Positions 16,186 to 25,411 of a stretch of 28,445 nt of DNA are shown here, piece after piece. Positions within the stretch are counted from its first letter, which is position 1. Every line of letters begins with the position of its first letter. This DNA comes from a virus: the IMG/VR virus record IMGVR_UViG_3300021961_000465, positions 1-28,445 of that record, one strand, 5' to 3'. The notes under the pieces were generated by a model. The model was not told where the DNA came from. It ran no database searches and saw nothing but the letters and a program-made list of their open reading frames with translations. Both the position numbers and the translations under genes were made by a program.

Positions 16186-16216
16186 CTTGACAATACTCAG
16201 GTACCCCCTATATATA
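16186..16216 (+). promoter_or_regulatory. Promoter before hsp20, alphaproteobacterial type
   Basis: TTGACA (16187-16192) is a perfect -35. Its -10 candidates are TATATA at 16209-16214 (16-base spacer) or 16211-16216 (18-base spacer). The site also fits the alphaproteobacterial heat-shock consensus CTTG-N17-CYTATNT exactly (CTTG 16186-16189, CCTATAT 16207-16213). It likewise fits the CTTGAC-N17-CTATAT vegetative consensus, with a spacer of 16. It lies about 60 bases before hsp20, in a gap that has no coding sequence. Confidence 0.65.
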
Positions 16217-16771: not shown

Positions 16772-16842
16772 TGTTTCCTTATACAGCGGAAGAGTGGGAA
16801 TTTATTTCCCGCTCTTTCCAGGATTACAAATATATCCCATAG
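16771..16842 (+). CDS. 23-residue peptide ORF, possibly translated
   Basis: A 23-residue ORF starting with a TAATG overlap and preceded by AAGGAG (16757-16762). The predicted peptide MFPYTAEEWEFISRSF is soluble and aromatic-rich. The weak point is that it overlaps the opposite-strand ORF at 16802-16993 by about 40 bases and runs through a strong hairpin. Either both are real in convergent overlap, or this one is only the unread tail of the hsp20 transcript. I rate it uncertain. Confidence 0.35.
   Translation: MFPYTAEEWEFISRSFQDYKYIP
16788..16819. terminator. Hairpin at the convergent junction (possible bidirectional 3' end)
   Basis: GGAAGAGTGGGAA (16788-16800) pairs with TTCCCGCTCTTTCC (16806-16819) around a five-base loop, with one G-U pair and one bulged base. 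It lies where the rightward hsp20 unit meets the leftward helicase unit, and the stop codon of the leftward small gene is in the loop. No T-run follows on either strand, so a classical intrinsic terminator is not shown; a processing or Rho-linked 3' end is possible. Confidence 0.45.
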
Positions 16843-16993
16843 TAATTTCACCATTAATATAATGGTTATTATGTTTGCTATCATGGTACATATTTTTTTC
16901 AAACCATGTTTGGCAAGGTTCATGAATAGGAATATCTCTTAAATAATATTCTGTTGGTGATACCAACATTATTAAAGTAATAATTAAATCCAT
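16802..16993 (-). CDS. Small putative exported protein after the helicase
   Basis: A 63-residue ORF whose ATG overlaps the last ten bases of the helicase gene. The first about 12 residues are hydrophobic (MDLIITLIMLVS), like a signal or anchor segment. The rest has a spaced Cys pair (C27 in HEPCQTW and C56 in MGYICNP) that could form a disulfide in the periplasm. The Shine-Dalgarno is weak (GGAG about 13 bases upstream). The pattern looks like a recurrent small phage protein, but I cannot name the family. Confidence 0.55.
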   Translation of the reverse strand: MDLIITLIMLVSPTEYYLRDIPIHEPCQTWFEKNMYHDSKHNNHYINGEITMGYICNPGKSGK

Positions 16994-18417
16994 TCCTTTA
17001 ATTCTTCTCCAAGAATTTCAGATGCAATATTTATTTTTTTACGAAGAGCTTTAACTATTTTTTCATCTATTGTTTCTTCAGCAATTAAATCAATATAGGT
17101 TACTGATTTTTTTTGCCCAATACGATGTGCTCTATCTTCTGACTGAAGTCTTTTTTCAAGGTCATACCCATTTGAATAATAGATAACAGTATTTGCTGCA
17201 GTGAGCGTAATACCATAGCCACCTGTTTGTGGATTGCCAACGAAAAATCTGACTGGGGAATTCGGGTCTTGAAACGTTTGTATATTTTTCTGTCTTTTCT
17301 CGGCTTCGATCGCTCCATAATATTGCACAACAGAATCTTGTCCATATTTTTTTTGTATTTCTTTAACAATGTGCTCAATGTCATAAATATAATTTGCCCA
17401 AATAATTGCTTTTCCCTCTACCTCTTCTAACACATCTAAGAGTTCATTTAAACGATTGTTTTTTAATTCAACAATTTCACCATCATCTAGCTTTAAATGT
17501 CCACAAGTTATTTGATGTAATCGCATTAGTTGTGTTAATACATGTGGTGCTGTCGTAATTTTGCCATCAAATTCTGCTAAAGCCGCAGCTTTCATAGTTT
17601 TATATTTCTTACTTTGTTCTTCTGTTAATTCTACTGTTCTTCTGATATAAATCTTTTCTGGAAGATCTAAACAATCTTCTTTTAATACACGATATGAAAA
17701 TGATTTTAGAGAATCAGATAGTTCATCGAGTCTCTTATAACTTCCTATTATCTGAACTTGTCGGCCACCAAAATTTCTTGTCACCATATGTGCATAACGG
17801 TTTCGAAAACTATAAAAAGATTGAAAGCCAAGTAGATCTTCGTGAAGAAATTTGCATTGGCTATATAGATCGAGCGGCGATTTAGTTACAGGAGATCCAG
17901 TTAAAATTCTTCTATATTTAGCCAAAGGAGCTAATCCTGTAATAGATTTAGTACGTTTTGCTGTAGGTGTTTTAATGGTTGTAGATTCGTCTATGGCCAT
18001 TAATGTTTTATGACACCTTAAAAATTTAGCAGCAAAATCCAACCCTTTTTTGGTTGAAAACGCCTCAACATTCATGACAAGGATGTGAAGGTCATAGTCT
18101 GATTCGAATAATGATTGATACTCTTTATCCTTTGCTTTTGATGTTGAAGCAGTCCATAGTATCGTTTTATGTTGGATGTGACTAGCTAAATGTGTAGGAA
18201 TTTCTCCAGAAAACCAGTTCCTATAAACACCTTTTGGTGCTATAATAAGTGCCGCATTTATTTTACCTGCGTCATAAAGTATACCAATATTATCTACTAA
18301 TACTTTAGATTTACCTGTTCCCATTTCCATGAAATAAGCATATTCTTCTTTATCCCATGACTTTTCCAATGCAGTTAATTGATGTGCATATGGTTTAGTT
18401 TTAAATTTATAGTTCAT
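16984..18417 (-). CDS. SNF2-family DEAD-like helicase/translocase
   Basis: A 477-residue SF2 protein of the SWI2/SNF2 type, the only large leftward gene. Walker A is EMGTGKSK (31-38), motif II is DEST (D143, E144), and motif III is ILTGSPVTKS. The C-terminal helicase half has IIWANY, the segment GGYGITLTAANTVIYYS, and motif VI in SEDRAHRIGQ (about 426-435). These proteins move along double-stranded DNA or remodel protein-DNA complexes. An upstream in-frame ATG (18444) has an AAGGA nearby but overlaps the -10 of the likely promoter, so transcripts would start after it; I therefore chose ATG 18417. The protein is probably part of phage replication or recombination. Confidence 0.85.
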   Translation of the reverse strand: MNYKFKTKPYAHQLTALEKSWDKEEYAYFMEMGTGKSKVLVDNIGILYDAGKINAALIIAPKGVYRNWFSGEIPTHLASHIQHKTILWTASTSKAKDKEYQSLFESDYDLHILVMNVEAFSTKKGLDFAAKFLRCHKTLMAIDESTTIKTPTAKRTKSITGLAPLAKYRRILTGSPVTKSPLDLYSQCKFLHEDLLGFQSFYSFRNRYAHMVTRNFGGRQVQIIGSYKRLDELSDSLKSFSYRVLKEDCLDLPEKIYIRRTVELTEEQSKKYKTMKAAALAEFDGKITTAPHVLTQLMRLHQITCGHLKLDDGEIVELKNNRLNELLDVLEEVEGKAIIWANYIYDIEHIVKEIQKKYGQDSVVQYYGAIEAEKRQKNIQTFQDPNSPVRFFVGNPQTGGYGITLTAANTVIYYSNGYDLEKRLQSEDRAHRIGQKKSVTYIDLIAEETIDEKIVKALRKKINIASEILGEELKEWI

Positions 18418-18436
18418 AATTTTTTTATTCTTTCTA

Positions 18437-18466
18437 CTTGACATTATATATAATTGTCCTTATATG
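18437..18466 (+). promoter_or_regulatory. Rightward promoter for the replication operon
   Basis: TTGACA (18438-18443), a 17-base spacer, then TATATG (18461-18466). The alphaproteobacterial pattern CTTGAC-N17-TTATAT is also met, and CTTG-N18-CTTATAT fits the RpoH-like CYTATNT box. The predicted start, at about 18473, is only about 14 bases before ATG 18487. The -35 overlaps the leftward helicase's promoter and first possible start codon (see the leftward entry). Confidence 0.6.
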
Positions 18467-18475
18467 GTTGTCAAG
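18445..18475 (-). promoter_or_regulatory. Leftward promoter for the SNF2 helicase, overlapping the rightward one
   Basis: On the minus strand TTGACA (18469-18474, read leftward) is followed by TATATA at an 18-base spacer (18445-18450). A perfect TATAAT (18443-18448) sits at 20 bases. The -35 elements of this and the rightward promoter form an inverted repeat CTTGACA...TGTCAAG (18437-18443 and 18469-18475). Polymerase bound at one promoter would cover the other. Transcripts would begin at about 18438, after the first possible ATG, which favours the start at 18417. Confidence 0.55.
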
Positions 18476-18486
18476 AGAATAAAAGA

Positions 18487-18894
18487 ATGAAGAATAAGAT
18501 TTTTGAATTATATAAAAAAGATTCGTTAGCAGAGTTCTTAAAGTTTTACAAAGAGAATCCTGAAGAGAATTTCGTATATGTACTACAGACTCCTCCTACT
18601 AATATAAATGTATTAGGTGCATCTGATTTTGGATATTTAGTTATTTGTTTACCAAATTATGGTCCTGATTCTCAGATTATTTTTTCACCTGCACCATTTG
18701 TATTTAAGATGAGAAAAAATTTAAGAGATTTCAGAAAACAAGATTATATATTGTTAACAGGAGATCCAGCTATTATAGGTATTTCTTGTGCAATTGTGAG
18801 TGACCAAACTAATGGTCAATTTAGACTCTTGAAATGGGATCGACGAGAGGCTAGATATTACCCAATAAATTTCGATCTATATCAGAAAGGATAA
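18487..18894 (+). CDS. Unknown protein at head of replication operon
   Basis: A 135-residue protein read from ATG 18487; the more upstream TTG at 18454 lies inside the promoter and is rejected. The N-terminal third is basic and helical (KNKIFELYKKDSLAEFLKFYKEN). The rest has alternating strands such as DFGYLVICL, KQDYILLTGDPAIIGIS, and a Trp/Arg-rich end (LLKWDRREARYYPINF). No catalytic motif is visible. It leads the operon and is separated from the next gene by three bases, so it is likely an early protein, possibly regulatory, but the function is unknown. Confidence 0.7.
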   Translation: MKNKIFELYKKDSLAEFLKFYKENPEENFVYVLQTPPTNINVLGASDFGYLVICLPNYGPDSQIIFSPAPFVFKMRKNLRDFRKQDYILLTGDPAIIGISCAIVSDQTNGQFRLLKWDRREARYYPINFDLYQKG

Positions 18895-18897
18895 TAC

Positions 18898-19449
18898 ATG
18901 AGTATAAACTTTGAAGACGACAAACAGGATCTGTTGCAAAATACAGATGTGGAATCATTATCAGTGAATGTAGATAAACTGGTAGATCTTGATGAACAAA
19001 TTAAAAGATCAGAAGAACACACTAAAAATCTACAAACCATGAGAGACAAAATTAGTTCAGAAGTAATTCCTAATATTTTAGCAGAACAAGGATTACAATC
19101 TCTGAAATTAGCTGATGGAACTGTACTAGAAGTAAGTAAAAAATACAGCTGTACACTTCCGAAAGACCCTGAGAAACGGGAAGCAGCTTATAAATGGCTT
19201 CGTGAACAAGGTCTAGGTGACATCATTAAAAATGAAGTTGCTGTGACATTTGGTCGTGGAGAAGACAACAAGGCGGAGCAATTGCTTAACCTTGCAGCTT
19301 CAAATGGATTCGAACCTCAACAAAGATCTAAGGTTGAGCCGATGACTTTGAAAGCTCTATACAGGGAGCGTGTCGAGGCTGGCCTCGACATGCCTTCCGA
19401 CGTTTTTCATTTATTTGTGAAAGACGAAACTAAACTTAGCCAGAAATAG
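18898..19449 (+). CDS. Coiled-coil early protein in replication operon
   Basis: A 183-residue protein with an acidic N-terminus and a predicted coiled coil at about 25-60 (VDKLVDLDEQIKRSEEHTKNLQ). A mixed alpha/beta part (LADGTVLEVSKKYSCTLP) and a charged C-terminal half follow. I do not recognise a family. An AAGGATA ribosome-binding site precedes the start, and the stop is fused to the next Shine-Dalgarno (TAGGAG). It lies directly before the SSB-like gene, so a role alongside DNA binding or replication is suggested by position only. The end of the gene (19361-19400) has unusually GC-rich codons for this phage. Confidence 0.7.
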   Translation: MSINFEDDKQDLLQNTDVESLSVNVDKLVDLDEQIKRSEEHTKNLQTMRDKISSEVIPNILAEQGLQSLKLADGTVLEVSKKYSCTLPKDPEKREAAYKWLREQGLGDIIKNEVAVTFGRGEDNKAEQLLNLAASNGFEPQQRSKVEPMTLKALYRERVEAGLDMPSDVFHLFVKDETKLSQK

Positions 19450-19460
19450 GAGAAACGTGA

Positions 19461-20240
19461 ATGACGGAACAAGAAACGCGAACCGTGACTAAAAAAGAAA
19501 CACACTTGCCTACCGCAAGTTTGTTTGAAGCTGATGCCCATTATGGTTTTCAGAATATGGATCAAAGCGATTTGGCTTTACCATTTTTGAGAATACTTGG
19601 GCAATTATCACCTCAAGTAAATGAGAGGGATTCAAAGTATGTAGCAGGTGCCAAAGCTGGTATGATCTATAATACTGTGACTTCTGAACTTTATGATGGG
19701 ATAAAAGGAATCAATGTAATCCCTTGTCATTATAAAAGGGAATATGTTGAATGGACGGACAGAGGAGAAGGAACTGGTGCTCCAGTTGCTGTGCACTCCG
19801 CAACCAGTCCAATTATTCATGAAGCCACTAGGGACAGCATGAATAAAGATAGACTCAAGAATGGAAACTATCTTGAGAATACTGCATCGTACTTTGTACT
19901 AGTTACTAAAGATAATAGTGCAGAGACTGCATTGATTACTATGAAATCTACTCAGTTAAAAATGAGTAAGACATGGAACTCAATGATGAATGGACTAAAA
20001 CTTCAAGGTAAGAATGGTCTATTTACACCACCGATGTTCAGTCATGTGTACAATTTAAAAACTGTACAACAATCAAATGATAAAGGTACGTGGTTTGGTT
20101 GGGCTGTATCAAAGGTAGGTCCTGTACAAAATAAGGGACTGTATGAGCAAGCAAAAGCTTTTGCTAATAGTGTTGGATCAGGAGAGATTCAAGCTAAACA
20201 TGCGAAAGATGAGAAGAGCGAAGAGAACGTACCATTTTAA
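19461..20240 (+). CDS. Probable single-stranded DNA-binding protein (SSB-like C-terminus)
   Basis: A 259-residue protein. The core (residues about 25-215) is beta-rich with many aromatic and basic residues (HYKREYVEWTDRG, KTWNSMMNGLKL). The key feature is the extreme C-terminus: after a Lys/Glu-rich linker it ends DEKSEENVPF, an acidic tail with a terminal Pro-Phe. That is the layout of SSB tails that recruit replication proteins. Size, position before primase and polymerase, and the tail together suggest a replicative ssDNA-binding protein. The fold itself is not recognised, so this is inference. A strong terminator follows. Confidence 0.6.
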   Translation: MTEQETRTVTKKETHLPTASLFEADAHYGFQNMDQSDLALPFLRILGQLSPQVNERDSKYVAGAKAGMIYNTVTSELYDGIKGINVIPCHYKREYVEWTDRGEGTGAPVAVHSATSPIIHEATRDSMNKDRLKNGNYLENTASYFVLVTKDNSAETALITMKSTQLKMSKTWNSMMNGLKLQGKNGLFTPPMFSHVYNLKTVQQSNDKGTWFGWAVSKVGPVQNKGLYEQAKAFANSVGSGEIQAKHAKDEKSEENVPF

Positions 20241-20245
20241 ATGGG

Positions 20246-20269
20246 AAGGGGCCTTCGGGCCCCTTTTTT
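20246..20269 (+). terminator. Intrinsic terminator with UUCG loop
   Basis: GGGGCC (20248-20253), loop TTCG, and GGCCCC (20258-20263), directly followed by six Ts (20264-20269). Two further A-T pairs extend the stem. This is a textbook rho-independent terminator, five bases after the SSB-like stop codon and before the primase ribosome-binding site (CAGGAG at 20274-20279). It probably gives more SSB-like and early mRNA than primase and polymerase mRNA. Confidence 0.9.
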
Positions 20270-20284
20270 ACAACAGGAGAATAA

Positions 20285-21802
20285 ATGAAAGAAAAATTTA
20301 AAAGTATATTTGAAGGACTAAGTATTGCTTATGGTCAGTACCAAAAAGGTGACCATGATGAAAATGGAAAGCAAAAAGGCAGAGCATTCATTGTTAGAAA
20401 AAATATAACTGATGAACTTTGGGAAAATCATATCAATGGAGTTGGTCCTGCTCTTGGTATTATACCTATTAATGAAAACAATTCTTGTAAATGGGGTTGT
20501 ATTGATATTGATGAATACAATTTTAATCATGCAGAATTAGTATCAGAAATACGATCTAAAGATTTACCATTAATAGTTTGTAGATCTAAATCAGGTGGTG
20601 CACATGTGTTTTTATTTACAAAAGATTTTATACCTGCATCTATTATGCAAAGCACACTTAAAAAGATGTCAGGAATTTTAGGATATGAAGGTGCTGAAAT
20701 ATTTCCGAAGCAAACAGAAATACTCGTGGAACGTGGAGATACAGGAAATTTTTTAAATTTACCTTACCACAACCAAATGAATGGATTGCGCTATGCATTT
20801 AAAGATGATGGTGAAGCGGCAACCATAGAAGAATTTTTTGGATTATATGACAAATATGTTCAATCAGAATTAAAAGAAGTTAAGTTAGAAAAGAAAAAAG
20901 AAATAGAAGCATTTCAAGATGGTCCGCCTTGTTTAAATAAATTAGCTAAAGATGGTTTTGGAGAAGGCGCAAGAAATAATGCATTATTTAATATTGCGGT
21001 TTATTATAAACAATCAAAACCAGATTCTTGGGAAGATGAATTAGTAAAAGCAAATCAAGAATACATGGTTCCTCCATTAAGTAATGGAGAAGTTCAGATG
21101 TTAATTAAATCTGTAAATAAGAAAGGATATGATAAATATAGATGTAAAGACGCACCAATTAATTCAGTGTGTAATCCAAGTTTATGTAGAATGAAAAGAT
21201 TTGGAGTAGGATATGATGAAGAACAAATACCAGTATTAGGAAATTTAACTAAGTATGCATCTAAACCACCTCAGTGGTTTTTAGATGTAGGGGAATCAAG
21301 AATAGAATTAAAAACAGAACAATTATATAACTCTGGCTTATTTGCTCTAGCTTGTTTAGATCAAGCAAATTTATTAGTTCCAGTACAAAAACCAAAAGAT
21401 TGGAAACAACATTATTTAAAACCTTTAATGGATAATCTACAAGAAATAAAAGCTTTAGAATCTTTAGATCCATTAAATCAACTATATTCTTTATTACAAG
21501 ATTGGACTACTAATAGACAGTCGGCAAGAACCATGGAAGATATATTTAATAAACTTCCACATACAGATGAGAAAAGAGAATTTACTTATTTTAGAATGGA
21601 AGACTTTTATAATTATTGTAAACGAAATAACTGGGAATTTAAAAAATCAGAAACAGGTAATTATTTAAAACAATTAGATTGTTTTGTAGAAGAAATAAGA
21701 AAAGATTTAAAAGGAGGAGCTCCTCGTCTTGTTAAAATTAAAGCATTGAAAAAACAAGATGTATCTACTTCTAAAATTGCATATCACGAAGATCATTTTT
21801 AA
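20285..21802 (+). CDS. DNA primase, AEP type (TOTE-like), with Cys-rich C-terminal part
   Basis: A 505-residue protein with archaeo-eukaryotic primase motifs. The metal-binding DxD pair is D74/D76 (CIDIDEY), followed by SKSGGAH (101-107) and the strand IFPKQTEI (139-146). This pattern fits the AEP primases I know from TOTE conflict systems and from phage primase genes. Residues about 211-310 form a C-terminal module with C216, C287, C296 and C301 and ARNNALFNIAVYYK, resembling a PriCT-type domain with a possible zinc site. There is no helicase motif in the same chain. The remaining about 190 residues are helical and not recognised. Probable role: primer synthesis, working with the UvrD-like helicase and PolA next door. 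Confidence 0.8.
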   Translation: MKEKFKSIFEGLSIAYGQYQKGDHDENGKQKGRAFIVRKNITDELWENHINGVGPALGIIPINENNSCKWGCIDIDEYNFNHAELVSEIRSKDLPLIVCRSKSGGAHVFLFTKDFIPASIMQSTLKKMSGILGYEGAEIFPKQTEILVERGDTGNFLNLPYHNQMNGLRYAFKDDGEAATIEEFFGLYDKYVQSELKEVKLEKKKEIEAFQDGPPCLNKLAKDGFGEGARNNALFNIAVYYKQSKPDSWEDELVKANQEYMVPPLSNGEVQMLIKSVNKKGYDKYRCKDAPINSVCNPSLCRMKRFGVGYDEEQIPVLGNLTKYASKPPQWFLDVGESRIELKTEQLYNSGLFALACLDQANLLVPVQKPKDWKQHYLKPLMDNLQEIKALESLDPLNQLYSLLQDWTTNRQSARTMEDIFNKLPHTDEKREFTYFRMEDFYNYCKRNNWEFKKSETGNYLKQLDCFVEEIRKDLKGGAPRLVKIKALKKQDVSTSKIAYHEDHF

Positions 21803-21804
21803 TT

Positions 21805-23313
21805 ATGAAAACTATTATATTAGGTCCACCTGGAACAGGAAAAACAACTACTTTATTAAACTTAGTAGATGAATTTATTCAACAAGGTATTAGACCAAGA
21901 CAAATAGGTTATTTTTCTTTTACTAGAAAAGCAGCAACAGAAGCTGCAACTAGAGCTGCAGAAAAATTTAATTTAAATATAGATTTAGATTTAGAAAATT
22001 TTAGAACTTTACATTCTTATGCATTTAGAAAATTAGCTATGTCTAAAGAAAAGATGATGAAGAAAGAGGACTATAAAGAATTTGGGCAGAAATGTGGCAT
22101 TCCTATTAAAGTAGCAAGTTATTCAGAAGATGATGGAACATTTAATTCAGACAATGAATATTTAACTATTATTAATACAGCAAGAGTTAAGAGAATGGAC
22201 CTATTAGAATATTATGACCAAAGACAAAATATATTAGATATTGAAAGGGGAACATTATATCTCATAGCAGAAGAATTAGAAAGATATAAAAAAGAAAAAG
22301 GGTTAAAAGATTTTACAGATTTATTAGAGGATTTTATAGAAAAAGATATTGAATCTAATTTTAAAGTTTTATTTATAGATGAAGCGCAAGATTTATCTCA
22401 TTTACAATGGGATATGGTCAGGCAAATATGGAAAAATGCTGAAAAAACCTATATTGCAGGTGATGATGACCAGGCTATTTTTAAATGGGCTGGAGCAGAT
22501 GTAAATCATTTTATTGCATTACAAGAAGAAGTAGACACTATCAAAACATTAGATCAATCTTATCGTATTCCTGGAGGACCAATTCATGAATTATCACAAA
22601 GAATTATAGGTAAAGTTCAAAATAGATTTAATAAACAATATAAACCAAGACAAGAACAAGGTCTTTTAAAACGATATTCTGATGTGACCCAAGTAGATAT
22701 GTCACAAGGAAACTGGTTAGTATTATCTTCAGCCAATCATTTCTTAGATGATGTAAAAGAATTATGTGAATTAAGGGGCTGGTATTATCAATATAAAGGT
22801 AAAAACTCTATTGGTCTTAAATTATTATTAGCATTAAATAATTGGGAACAATTTAGAAATGGTTCTTTATTATCTCATTTAGAGATCAAAAACATTTATG
22901 AATATTTAGGAACTAATGTGTCTGATGGTTTTAGAGAAGGAAAATTATTCCATTCAGAAGAAAAATATACCATTCAAGAATGCAAAGAAAAATTTGGATT
23001 GTTAACCGATAAAGTTTGGTATGAGTCCTTTGAAGGTCTGGATCACTTGACAGAAAACTATATTCGTAATATGAGAGCTAATGGTGAGAAGATCAATAAG
23101 AATCCTAGAATTATCATGTCAACCATTCATGGTGAAAAAGGTGGCGAGGCAGATAAGGTATTATTACTTCAAGATATTACTAATGCTGCTATGGAAACGT
23201 TTGCGCATGATCCAGATGAACTTCATAGATTATTTTATACGGGCGCAACAAGAGCTAAAAAAGAATTACATATTGTTGATCCAAAAAATTTTGAAAAAGC
23301 ATATTTAATATGA
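21805..23313 (+). CDS. UvrD/Rep-like SF1 helicase
   Basis: A 502-residue superfamily 1 helicase. Visible motifs are Walker A GPPGTGKT (7-14), motif Ia YFSFTRKAA, motif II DEAQD (192-196), motif III GDDDQAIFKWAGA (about 219-231), motif IV QSYR, motif V TIHGEKGGEADKV and motif VI YTGATRAKKELHIV. It lacks the long C-terminal extension of bacterial UvrD, as in short phage versions. It starts two bases after the primase stop and overlaps DUF3310 by ATGA. Likely the replicative or recombination helicase of this phage; no DnaB-type helicase is seen in the window. Confidence 0.9.
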   Translation: MKTIILGPPGTGKTTTLLNLVDEFIQQGIRPRQIGYFSFTRKAATEAATRAAEKFNLNIDLDLENFRTLHSYAFRKLAMSKEKMMKKEDYKEFGQKCGIPIKVASYSEDDGTFNSDNEYLTIINTARVKRMDLLEYYDQRQNILDIERGTLYLIAEELERYKKEKGLKDFTDLLEDFIEKDIESNFKVLFIDEAQDLSHLQWDMVRQIWKNAEKTYIAGDDDQAIFKWAGADVNHFIALQEEVDTIKTLDQSYRIPGGPIHELSQRIIGKVQNRFNKQYKPRQEQGLLKRYSDVTQVDMSQGNWLVLSSANHFLDDVKELCELRGWYYQYKGKNSIGLKLLLALNNWEQFRNGSLLSHLEIKNIYEYLGTNVSDGFREGKLFHSEEKYTIQECKEKFGLLTDKVWYESFEGLDHLTENYIRNMRANGEKINKNPRIIMSTIHGEKGGEADKVLLLQDITNAAMETFAHDPDELHRLFYTGATRAKKELHIVDPKNFEKAYLI

Positions 23314-23549
23314 CCAATAAATCTGATTTAGAAAGAATATTCCCATCTACTCGTCAAGAAGGAGGTGATCATTATCAAAAACATAAGATACAACCTTATG
23401 AATTTATTACAGCCAATAATTTATCTTATTTCCAGGGAAACGTAATTAAATATGTAGTGAGATATAAAGATAAAAATGGCATAGAAGATTTAAGAAAGAT
23501 TATACATTATTGTGAATTAGAAATTGAACAAATAAAAAATAACAAATGA
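23310..23549 (+). CDS. DUF3310 protein
   Basis: A 79-residue protein of the DUF3310 family, common in phages. The signature is GGDHYQKHKIQPYEFI (18-33), followed by QGNVIKYVVRYKDKNGIEDL, with the Gly-Asp-His-Tyr and Lys-Tyr-x-x-Arg-Tyr-Lys pattern intact. Its biochemical role is not established (a nucleotide-kinase-like annotation is often given). It is coupled to the helicase (ATGA) and to the polymerase (ATGA), which supports a link to nucleotide or DNA metabolism. Confidence 0.9.
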   Translation: MTNKSDLERIFPSTRQEGGDHYQKHKIQPYEFITANNLSYFQGNVIKYVVRYKDKNGIEDLRKIIHYCELEIEQIKNNK

Positions 23550-25411
23550 GAACGATACAACCACCTTTATTTACACCACAAACTGAATGGGTGATGCCCG
23601 AAGAATTAAAAGATCTACGTGGTCATAAAGAAATTGCGGTAGACTTAGAGACTTGTGATCCTATGTTAACGGAACTTGGAGCGGGGAACGTGACTGGCCG
23701 TGGACATATTGCAGGAATCTCGCTAGCAGTAGAAGGATGGGAAGGATACTTTCCTATTGGTCATGAGCAAGGTGGAAACTTAGATAAAAAATTAGTGAAA
23801 AAATGGTTACAAGATATTTTTAATCAAGAAGACACTACATTCATATTTCATAATGCCATGTATGACGTATGTTGGTTAAGAAGTTTTGGTATTCAGATTA
23901 AAGGTAAAATTGTAGATACCATGATTGCTGCATCTTTAATTGATGAAAATAGATTATCCTATCGTTTAGATGCATTAGCAAAATTTTATGTAGGAATAGG
24001 TAAAGATGAAAATGTTTTACAAGCAGCAGCAAAAGAATATGGATTAGATCCTAAAAAAGATATGTGGAGATTGCCAGCTATGTTTGTAGGGCAGTATGCT
24101 GAACAAGATGCAAAAGCAACTTTGAAGTTGTGGCAAAAATTACAAATGGAATTGTATGCGCAAGAGTTAACTTCTATTTTTGATTTAGAGATAAAACTGT
24201 TTCCATGTTTAGTAGATATGAGATTTAAAGGTGTTCCAGTAGATTTAGATAAAGCAGATAAAATAAAGAAAAAATTACAATCAGATGAAAAGAAATTACT
24301 TAATAAAATCAAAGACTTATCTGGCATCGACGTAGAATTATGGGCAGCTGCCTCTATTGCGAAAGCATTTGATGCTGTCAAGCTTCCTTACGATAGAACA
24401 GAAAAAACAGGAGCTCCTAGTTTTACTAGAAACTTTTTAGCTAACCATCCACATGAACTTGCTCAATGTATTTCTAATGCAAGAGAGTTAAGTAAAGCTC
24501 ATACTACATTTATTGATACTATAACTAAACACGCACATAAAGGAAGAATACATGCAGAGATTAATCAAATACGTTCTGATGATGGTGGAACTGTTACAGG
24601 AAGATTTTCTATGTCTAATCCAAACTTACAACAAATCCCTGCGCGTCATCCTGAATTAGGACCATTGATACGATCTATTTTTATTCCTGAACAAAATTGT
24701 GTATGGGGAAGTTTTGATTACTCACAACAAGAACCAAGAATATTAGTTCACTATGCTAAATTACAAAAGTTAGAGGGTGTCGATACGATTGTCGAGGCCT
24801 ACCGAGCGGGGAACGCGGACTTTCATCAGGTTGTAGCGGACATGGCTAACATTGAACGAAAACAAGCAAAGACTATTAATTTAGGTTTGATGTATGGAAT
24901 GGGTAAAAATAAATTGATGGCTGAATTAGGTTTGATGAAAGAATCAGCAGAAAAACTAATTCAACAATATCATCAAAAAGCTCCATTCGTAAAACAATTG
25001 ATGGAAACAGTATCAAGAGTTGCAAATGATAGAGGTAAGATTAGAACATTATTAGGTAGAGCATGTCATTTTGAACTATGGCAACCGACACAGTTTGGAG
25101 TTCATAAACCATTACCATTAGAACAAGCTAGAAAAGAATATGGTGAACCATTAAAAAGAGCATTTACTTACAAAGCATTAAATAAATTAATTCAAGGATC
25201 TGCTGCTGATATGACTAAAAAATCTATGGTAGCATTATATGAAAACGGTATAATACCACATATACAAATTCATGATGAGGTAGACATCTCAGTTCAAGAT
25301 GATAAGATGGCCTCTCAAATTATTGAAATTATGGAATCAGCCGTTCAATTAGAGGTTCCAAACAAAGTAGATTATGAAAAAGGTGCTAATTGGGGAGATA
25401 TTTATGGATAA
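23546..25411 (+). CDS. polA: DNA polymerase I (family A) with 3'-5' exonuclease
   Basis: A 621-residue replicative polymerase without a 5' nuclease. The exonuclease has D33/E35 (VDLETC), D107 (HNAMYDVCW), and Y184/D188 (YAEQDAKAT). The polymerase has motif A D391 in FDYSQQEPR, motif B R438, K442, L446 and Y450 in ERKQAKTINLGLMYG, and motif C H577-D578-E579 in QIHDEVD. The residue corresponding to E. coli Phe762 is Leu446. Known work on viral PolA links Leu at this site to slower, more accurate synthesis and to temperate or slow life styles; for this phage that is only suggestive. It starts overlapping DUF3310. Confidence 0.95.
   Translation: MRTIQPPLFTPQTEWVMPEELKDLRGHKEIAVDLETCDPMLTELGAGNVTGRGHIAGISLAVEGWEGYFPIGHEQGGNLDKKLVKKWLQDIFNQEDTTFIFHNAMYDVCWLRSFGIQIKGKIVDTMIAASLIDENRLSYRLDALAKFYVGIGKDENVLQAAAKEYGLDPKKDMWRLPAMFVGQYAEQDAKATLKLWQKLQMELYAQELTSIFDLEIKLFPCLVDMRFKGVPVDLDKADKIKKKLQSDEKKLLNKIKDLSGIDVELWAAASIAKAFDAVKLPYDRTEKTGAPSFTRNFLANHPHELAQCISNARELSKAHTTFIDTITKHAHKGRIHAEINQIRSDDGGTVTGRFSMSNPNLQQIPARHPELGPLIRSIFIPEQNCVWGSFDYSQQEPRILVHYAKLQKLEGVDTIVEAYRAGNADFHQVVADMANIERKQAKTINLGLMYGMGKNKLMAELGLMKESAEKLIQQYHQKAPFVKQLMETVSRVANDRGKIRTLLGRACHFELWQPTQFGVHKPLPLEQARKEYGEPLKRAFTYKALNKLIQGSAADMTKKSMVALYENGIIPHIQIHDEVDISVQDDKMASQIIEIMESAVQLEVPNKVDYEKGANWGDIYG

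Follow-up and report, generated by a model that had tools for sequence, protein, structure and literature searches.

Overlapping, oppositely directed candidate promoters between an SNF2-type helicase gene and the replication operon of a virus related to HTVC023P-type pelagiphages

The window, meaning the whole stretch of DNA analysed here (28,445 nucleotides), is a 28.4-kb virus fragment. Among named phages its closest relatives are 023Pt_psg01 (MW574966) and Pelagibacter phage HTVC027P, both of the HTVC023P type; since these relatives are pelagiphages, the host of the window virus is presumably a member of SAR11. A gap of 69 bp, which contains the promoter pair, separates an SNF2-type helicase gene, read leftward from 18417, from a replication operon, read rightward from 18487. 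Both assignments had been made in the initial annotation and were borne out by the Pfam match and the gene order. The promoter elements listed below were read from the sequence.

16984-18417, minus strand: SNF2-type helicase gene, 477 amino acids (SNF2 domain, Pfam E 3.8e-21)
18438-18443, plus strand: rightward promoter (replication operon), -35 box TTGACA; the leftward transcript is predicted to start in this region
18445-18452, minus strand: leftward -10 region, with TATATA at a spacer of 16 bp (18452-18447) or 18 bp (18450-18445)
18448-18443, minus strand: alternative leftward -10, TATAAT, at a spacer of 20 bp
18461-18466, plus strand: rightward -10, TATATG, at a spacer of 17 bp and without T at its last position
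18469-18474, minus strand: leftward promoter (SNF2), -35 box TTGACA; the rightward transcript is predicted to start in this region
18487-18894, plus strand: Pam3 gp32-like gene of 135 amino acids that opens the replication operon (PF23992, E 4e-26)
18898-25411, plus strand: remainder of the operon (gp33-like, gp34-like, AEP primase, UvrD helicase, small ORF, PolA), in the same order as in MW574966

An orthologue of the SNF2 gene is annotated in MW574966 (79%), MN698241 (58%) and OR003939 (56%), and at the corresponding junction both 023Pt_psg01 and HTVC027P have the SNF2 unit opposite in direction to its listed neighbours. The ATG at 18417 is the most likely start codon; a ribosome-binding-like motif of this gene, AGAAAG, lies at about 18429-18434 and, given the predicted leftward start, falls within the leftward leader. 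The start of the longest open reading frame (18444) lies within the promoter box and upstream of that predicted transcript start. The SNF2 gene overlaps at its end with a leftward open reading frame of 63 amino acids (16802-16993); a small gene is annotated at the same place in 023Pt_psg01, so that the leftward unit may comprise two genes. The Pfam family matched by the primase (20285-21802) is PF22548 (E 1e-12), the archaeo-eukaryotic primase domain of TOTE conflict systems.

The 39 bases from 18437 to 18475 read CTTGACATTATATATAATTGTCCTTATATGGTTGTCAAG in the window. Both promoters are packed into 37 bp of these (18438-18474), with all -10 candidates situated between the two -35 boxes or at their inner edge. 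The rightward TTGACA-17-TATATG reported in the initial annotation was found at 18438-18443 and 18461-18466, as were its two leftward alternatives, TTGACA-18-TATATA and TTGACA-20-TATAAT; an additional TATATA at a spacer of 16 bp had not been listed there. The register of the leftward -10 is ambiguous because of these three candidates. A TTGACA followed after 20-30 bp by TGTCAA occurs once in the window, compared with a mean of 0.03 in shuffled sequences. A generic promoter scan of the window recovered neither promoter because it demands T as the last base of the -10. In both directions a -35 TTGAC is accompanied at 16-18 bp by a TA-rich -10, which lacks T at -7 in the window (TATATG, TATATA) as well as in relatives (TATATC, TATATA, TATAAG). 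The last T of the -10 is usually missing in alphaproteobacterial sigma70 promoters (PMC8407463), and the window -10s therefore fit this class. Such promoters share with the window the TTGAC -35 and a TA-rich -10 often without T at -7, but they are ordinarily single and directional (PMC8407463).

A nucleotide search of named phages with the window gave no match, and relatives were therefore sought by protein-anchored searches. Loci were gathered by similarity of the first protein of the replication operon, without use of the motif for selection. This yielded 202 intergenics with a divergent SNF2 gene, 114 of them distinct, namely 87 from the window/023Pt_psg01 clade (clade A) and 27 from the HTVC027P clade (clade B), the latter set apart by a well-supported branch of the gene tree. 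TTGAC and GTCAA were both present, and invariant, in 87/87 distinct clade-A intergenics, which are related sequences and not independent events. Mean pairwise identity within clade A was 1.0 for each box and 0.53 for the spacer between the boxes; it was 0.60 for the rightward leader and 0.65 for third codon positions of the next gene. The box occurs once per clade-A genome searched and is absent from clade B, and the distant relatives HTVC023P, DSL-LC04 and YuA have either no such box or no divergent arrangement. The intergenic gaps measure mostly 49-90 bp.

The initial annotation had suggested looking for related phages that lose one of the two -35/-10 pairs. No loss was seen in clade A, neither among the 87 distinct intergenics nor in two loci with an extra gene, on the replication side in L060 and on the SNF2 side in L154, both of which keep the box. 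Two candidates for box loss were rejected, L060 since its box is whole and lies upstream of the inserted small gene, and L052 since the locus, cut off by the contig start, is uninformative. Extra sequence, apparently small genes, was observed beside an intact box in L060 (3633-3853), L154 (2743-3001), L032, L044, L048 and L075.

The two hexamers are 24, 25 or 26 bp apart in 15, 58 and 3, respectively, of the 76 distinct clade-A cores, and this length shifts several times on the gene tree, most inner forks of which are poorly resolved. With the distance held to 24-26 bp, TATA-type -10s fall at spacers of 16-18 bp in both directions in most cores, as judged from a simple home-made scoring of the 76. 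The rightward -10 in most distinct cores is TATATC, TATATA, TATATG or TATAAG at a spacer of 16-18 bp, and TATAGT was also seen; one clade-A subgroup has a weak rightward -10 (TAAACC or TAAAGG) with TG upstream, TG-N-TAAA being an extended -10 in form. The leftward -10 of relatives is TATATA, TATATC or TATAAG at 16-18 bp, or TATAAT at 19 bp, a spacer longer than usual that is preferred in 23 of the 76 cores.

Beyond clade A, the more distant HTVC027P clade lacks the interlocked pair and has another tight bidirectional layout. In this clade TTTACT-16-TATATA-17-AGTCAA is found in 23 of the 27 distinct intergenics, and its self-complementary TATATA is a single candidate -10 usable by both directions, positioned between two weaker -35-like boxes. 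The latter overlap both start codons, and translation could therefore also explain their conservation. The clade-B junction (MN698241) resembles that of the window in the divergent gene pair and in compactness, but has one shared -10 with candidate -35s, whereas the window has two separate, nested -10s.

Published bidirectional promoters share a -10 and have divergent starts 7-25 bp apart, mostly 18 bp (PMC10268837, PMC12825309). With starts predicted as 7 bp past the -10, those of clade B are about 19 bp apart, and the layout would fit the classical bidirectional promoter with a shared -10. For the window, starts are predicted near 18473 in the rightward direction and near 18438-18440 in the leftward one. 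The distance between the predicted starts is 32-37 bp, and 7-12 bp separate the two -10s. Judged by predicted starts, clade B thus comes under the definition of Warman, Grainger and colleagues (starts 7-25 bp apart, -10 shared) and the window does not. The window would have in common with the promoters of these authors divergent mRNAs from a polymerase-sized site, steric exclusion and opposing -35s outside the -10 region, but differs in its separate -10s and in the distance between predicted starts; its arrangement is therefore termed interlocked, not shared.

It is probable, as judged from sequence and geometry, that the site consists of two overlapping sigma70-type promoters, served by the host polymerase and sterically exclusive, that partition initiation between two early units at a roughly fixed ratio. 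The 37 bp would represent two near-consensus promoters for a SAR11-type RNA polymerase, pointing apart, each -10 lying between the -35 and the -10 of the other promoter and each predicted start within the other's -35. Since the elements overlap within 37 bp, the polymerases should exclude one another; two could not be accommodated at once, and each initiation would proceed either leftward into the SNF2 helicase gene or rightward into the replication operon. Both units would be switched on together early in infection, the early timing being assumed, and promoters strong enough to compete would split initiation at a roughly fixed ratio set by the sequence. Since each -35 box matches or nearly matches the consensus, we infer competition and hence a coupled, roughly fixed ratio; the balance tips slightly towards such competition at the window site. 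A ratio-setting or coupling role for the pair is thus possible, and so is the fixed-ratio device suggested in the initial annotation.

The promoters may also be real and their interlock a mere economy of a compact genome, with exclusion a by-product of little effect on output, and this is quite possible. Little basal competition was seen at five wild-type bidirectional promoters of E. coli (PMC12825309), so exclusion may leave output unaffected; intergenic gaps are short, and the other geometry at the same junction in the HTVC027P clade indicates that the exact interlock is not essential. However, competition did appear at the E. coli promoters when a -35 was improved (PMC12825309), and the window, with both -35s at or near consensus, belongs to that regime; moreover, loci whose gap has been lengthened by inserted genes still have the interlock. 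Confidence in economy and in the preferred reading of partitioned initiation overlaps because both accept the promoter pair, differing only on whether exclusion changes output.

Regulation of the pair by a further factor appears less plausible. A mutual-exclusion switch, in which one direction fires early in infection and is later reversed by a phage regulator or by the SNF2 product, is unlikely: any one-sided activator would by geometry repress the other side, as at PsoxS/soxR, and the genes of HTVC027P fall into temporal classes during infection (PMC12753301), but no conserved regulator site was recognised outside the two promoters, and both sides, being near consensus, seem active by default. 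The strand-specific RNA-Seq of HTCC1062 infected with HTVC027P (PRJNA1253180) concerns the clade with the other geometry, and no values for the two genes of the gp87/gp01 junction appear in the main text of the expression paper on this phage. A bistable switch finds no support in the analysis, which turned up neither a feedback regulator or element nor a second state; in E. coli, competition at bidirectional promoters is limited to strong ones (PMC12825309). The opposing, overlapping promoters of the initial annotation stand, kept as they are in clade A, as does their mutual masking on grounds of geometry, while the term switch does not. It is very improbable that CTTGACA/TGTCAAG functions mainly as a palindromic operator to which a dimeric repressor or activator binds. 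The dyad has 7-bp arms and a single-stranded DNA fold z of -3.3, itself a consequence of the palindrome, but the arms are the exact -35 consensus, their distance from the TATA boxes is that of a promoter, and there is one copy per genome. The arm spacing of 24-26 bp, in both parities, departs from the fixed spacing of half-sites, and dyad covariation in the spacer was absent (P 0.73 and 1.0), although invariant symmetric bases could show none. The operator failed on both counts and is not supported.

A stronger version of partitioned initiation, at present tentative and rather doubtful, is that selection has made the interlocked pair, strong both ways, a device of competition by which initiation at the helicase gene and at the replication operon is held to a fixed ratio, and that sister clades keep exclusivity while changing geometry. 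If true, nested separate -10s versus one shared palindromic -10 in sister clades would amount to a natural experiment on promoter interference. The promoter pair would add a marine phage group, whose predicted geometry falls outside the 7-25 bp class described so far, to the cases of overlapping divergent promoters controlling two functional modules. About 90 natural variants from one clade and 27 from its sister would make up a library relating strength and spacing to the ratio of the two transcripts.

A second near-consensus promoter of the window, TTGACA-16-TATATA at 16187-16214, precedes an Hsp20 gene and has GGTACCCCCTATATATACC around its -10; a close match to these surroundings, GGTACCCCCTATAT, recurs in the L006 contig. 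GGGAT or ATCCC was sought in the window as a spacer motif and had no clear counterpart there. It was observed in the spacer of other TTGACA...TATA promoters in the contigs of L045, L078, L191 and L006, and in these relatives it possibly represents a common regulator site or an extended element.
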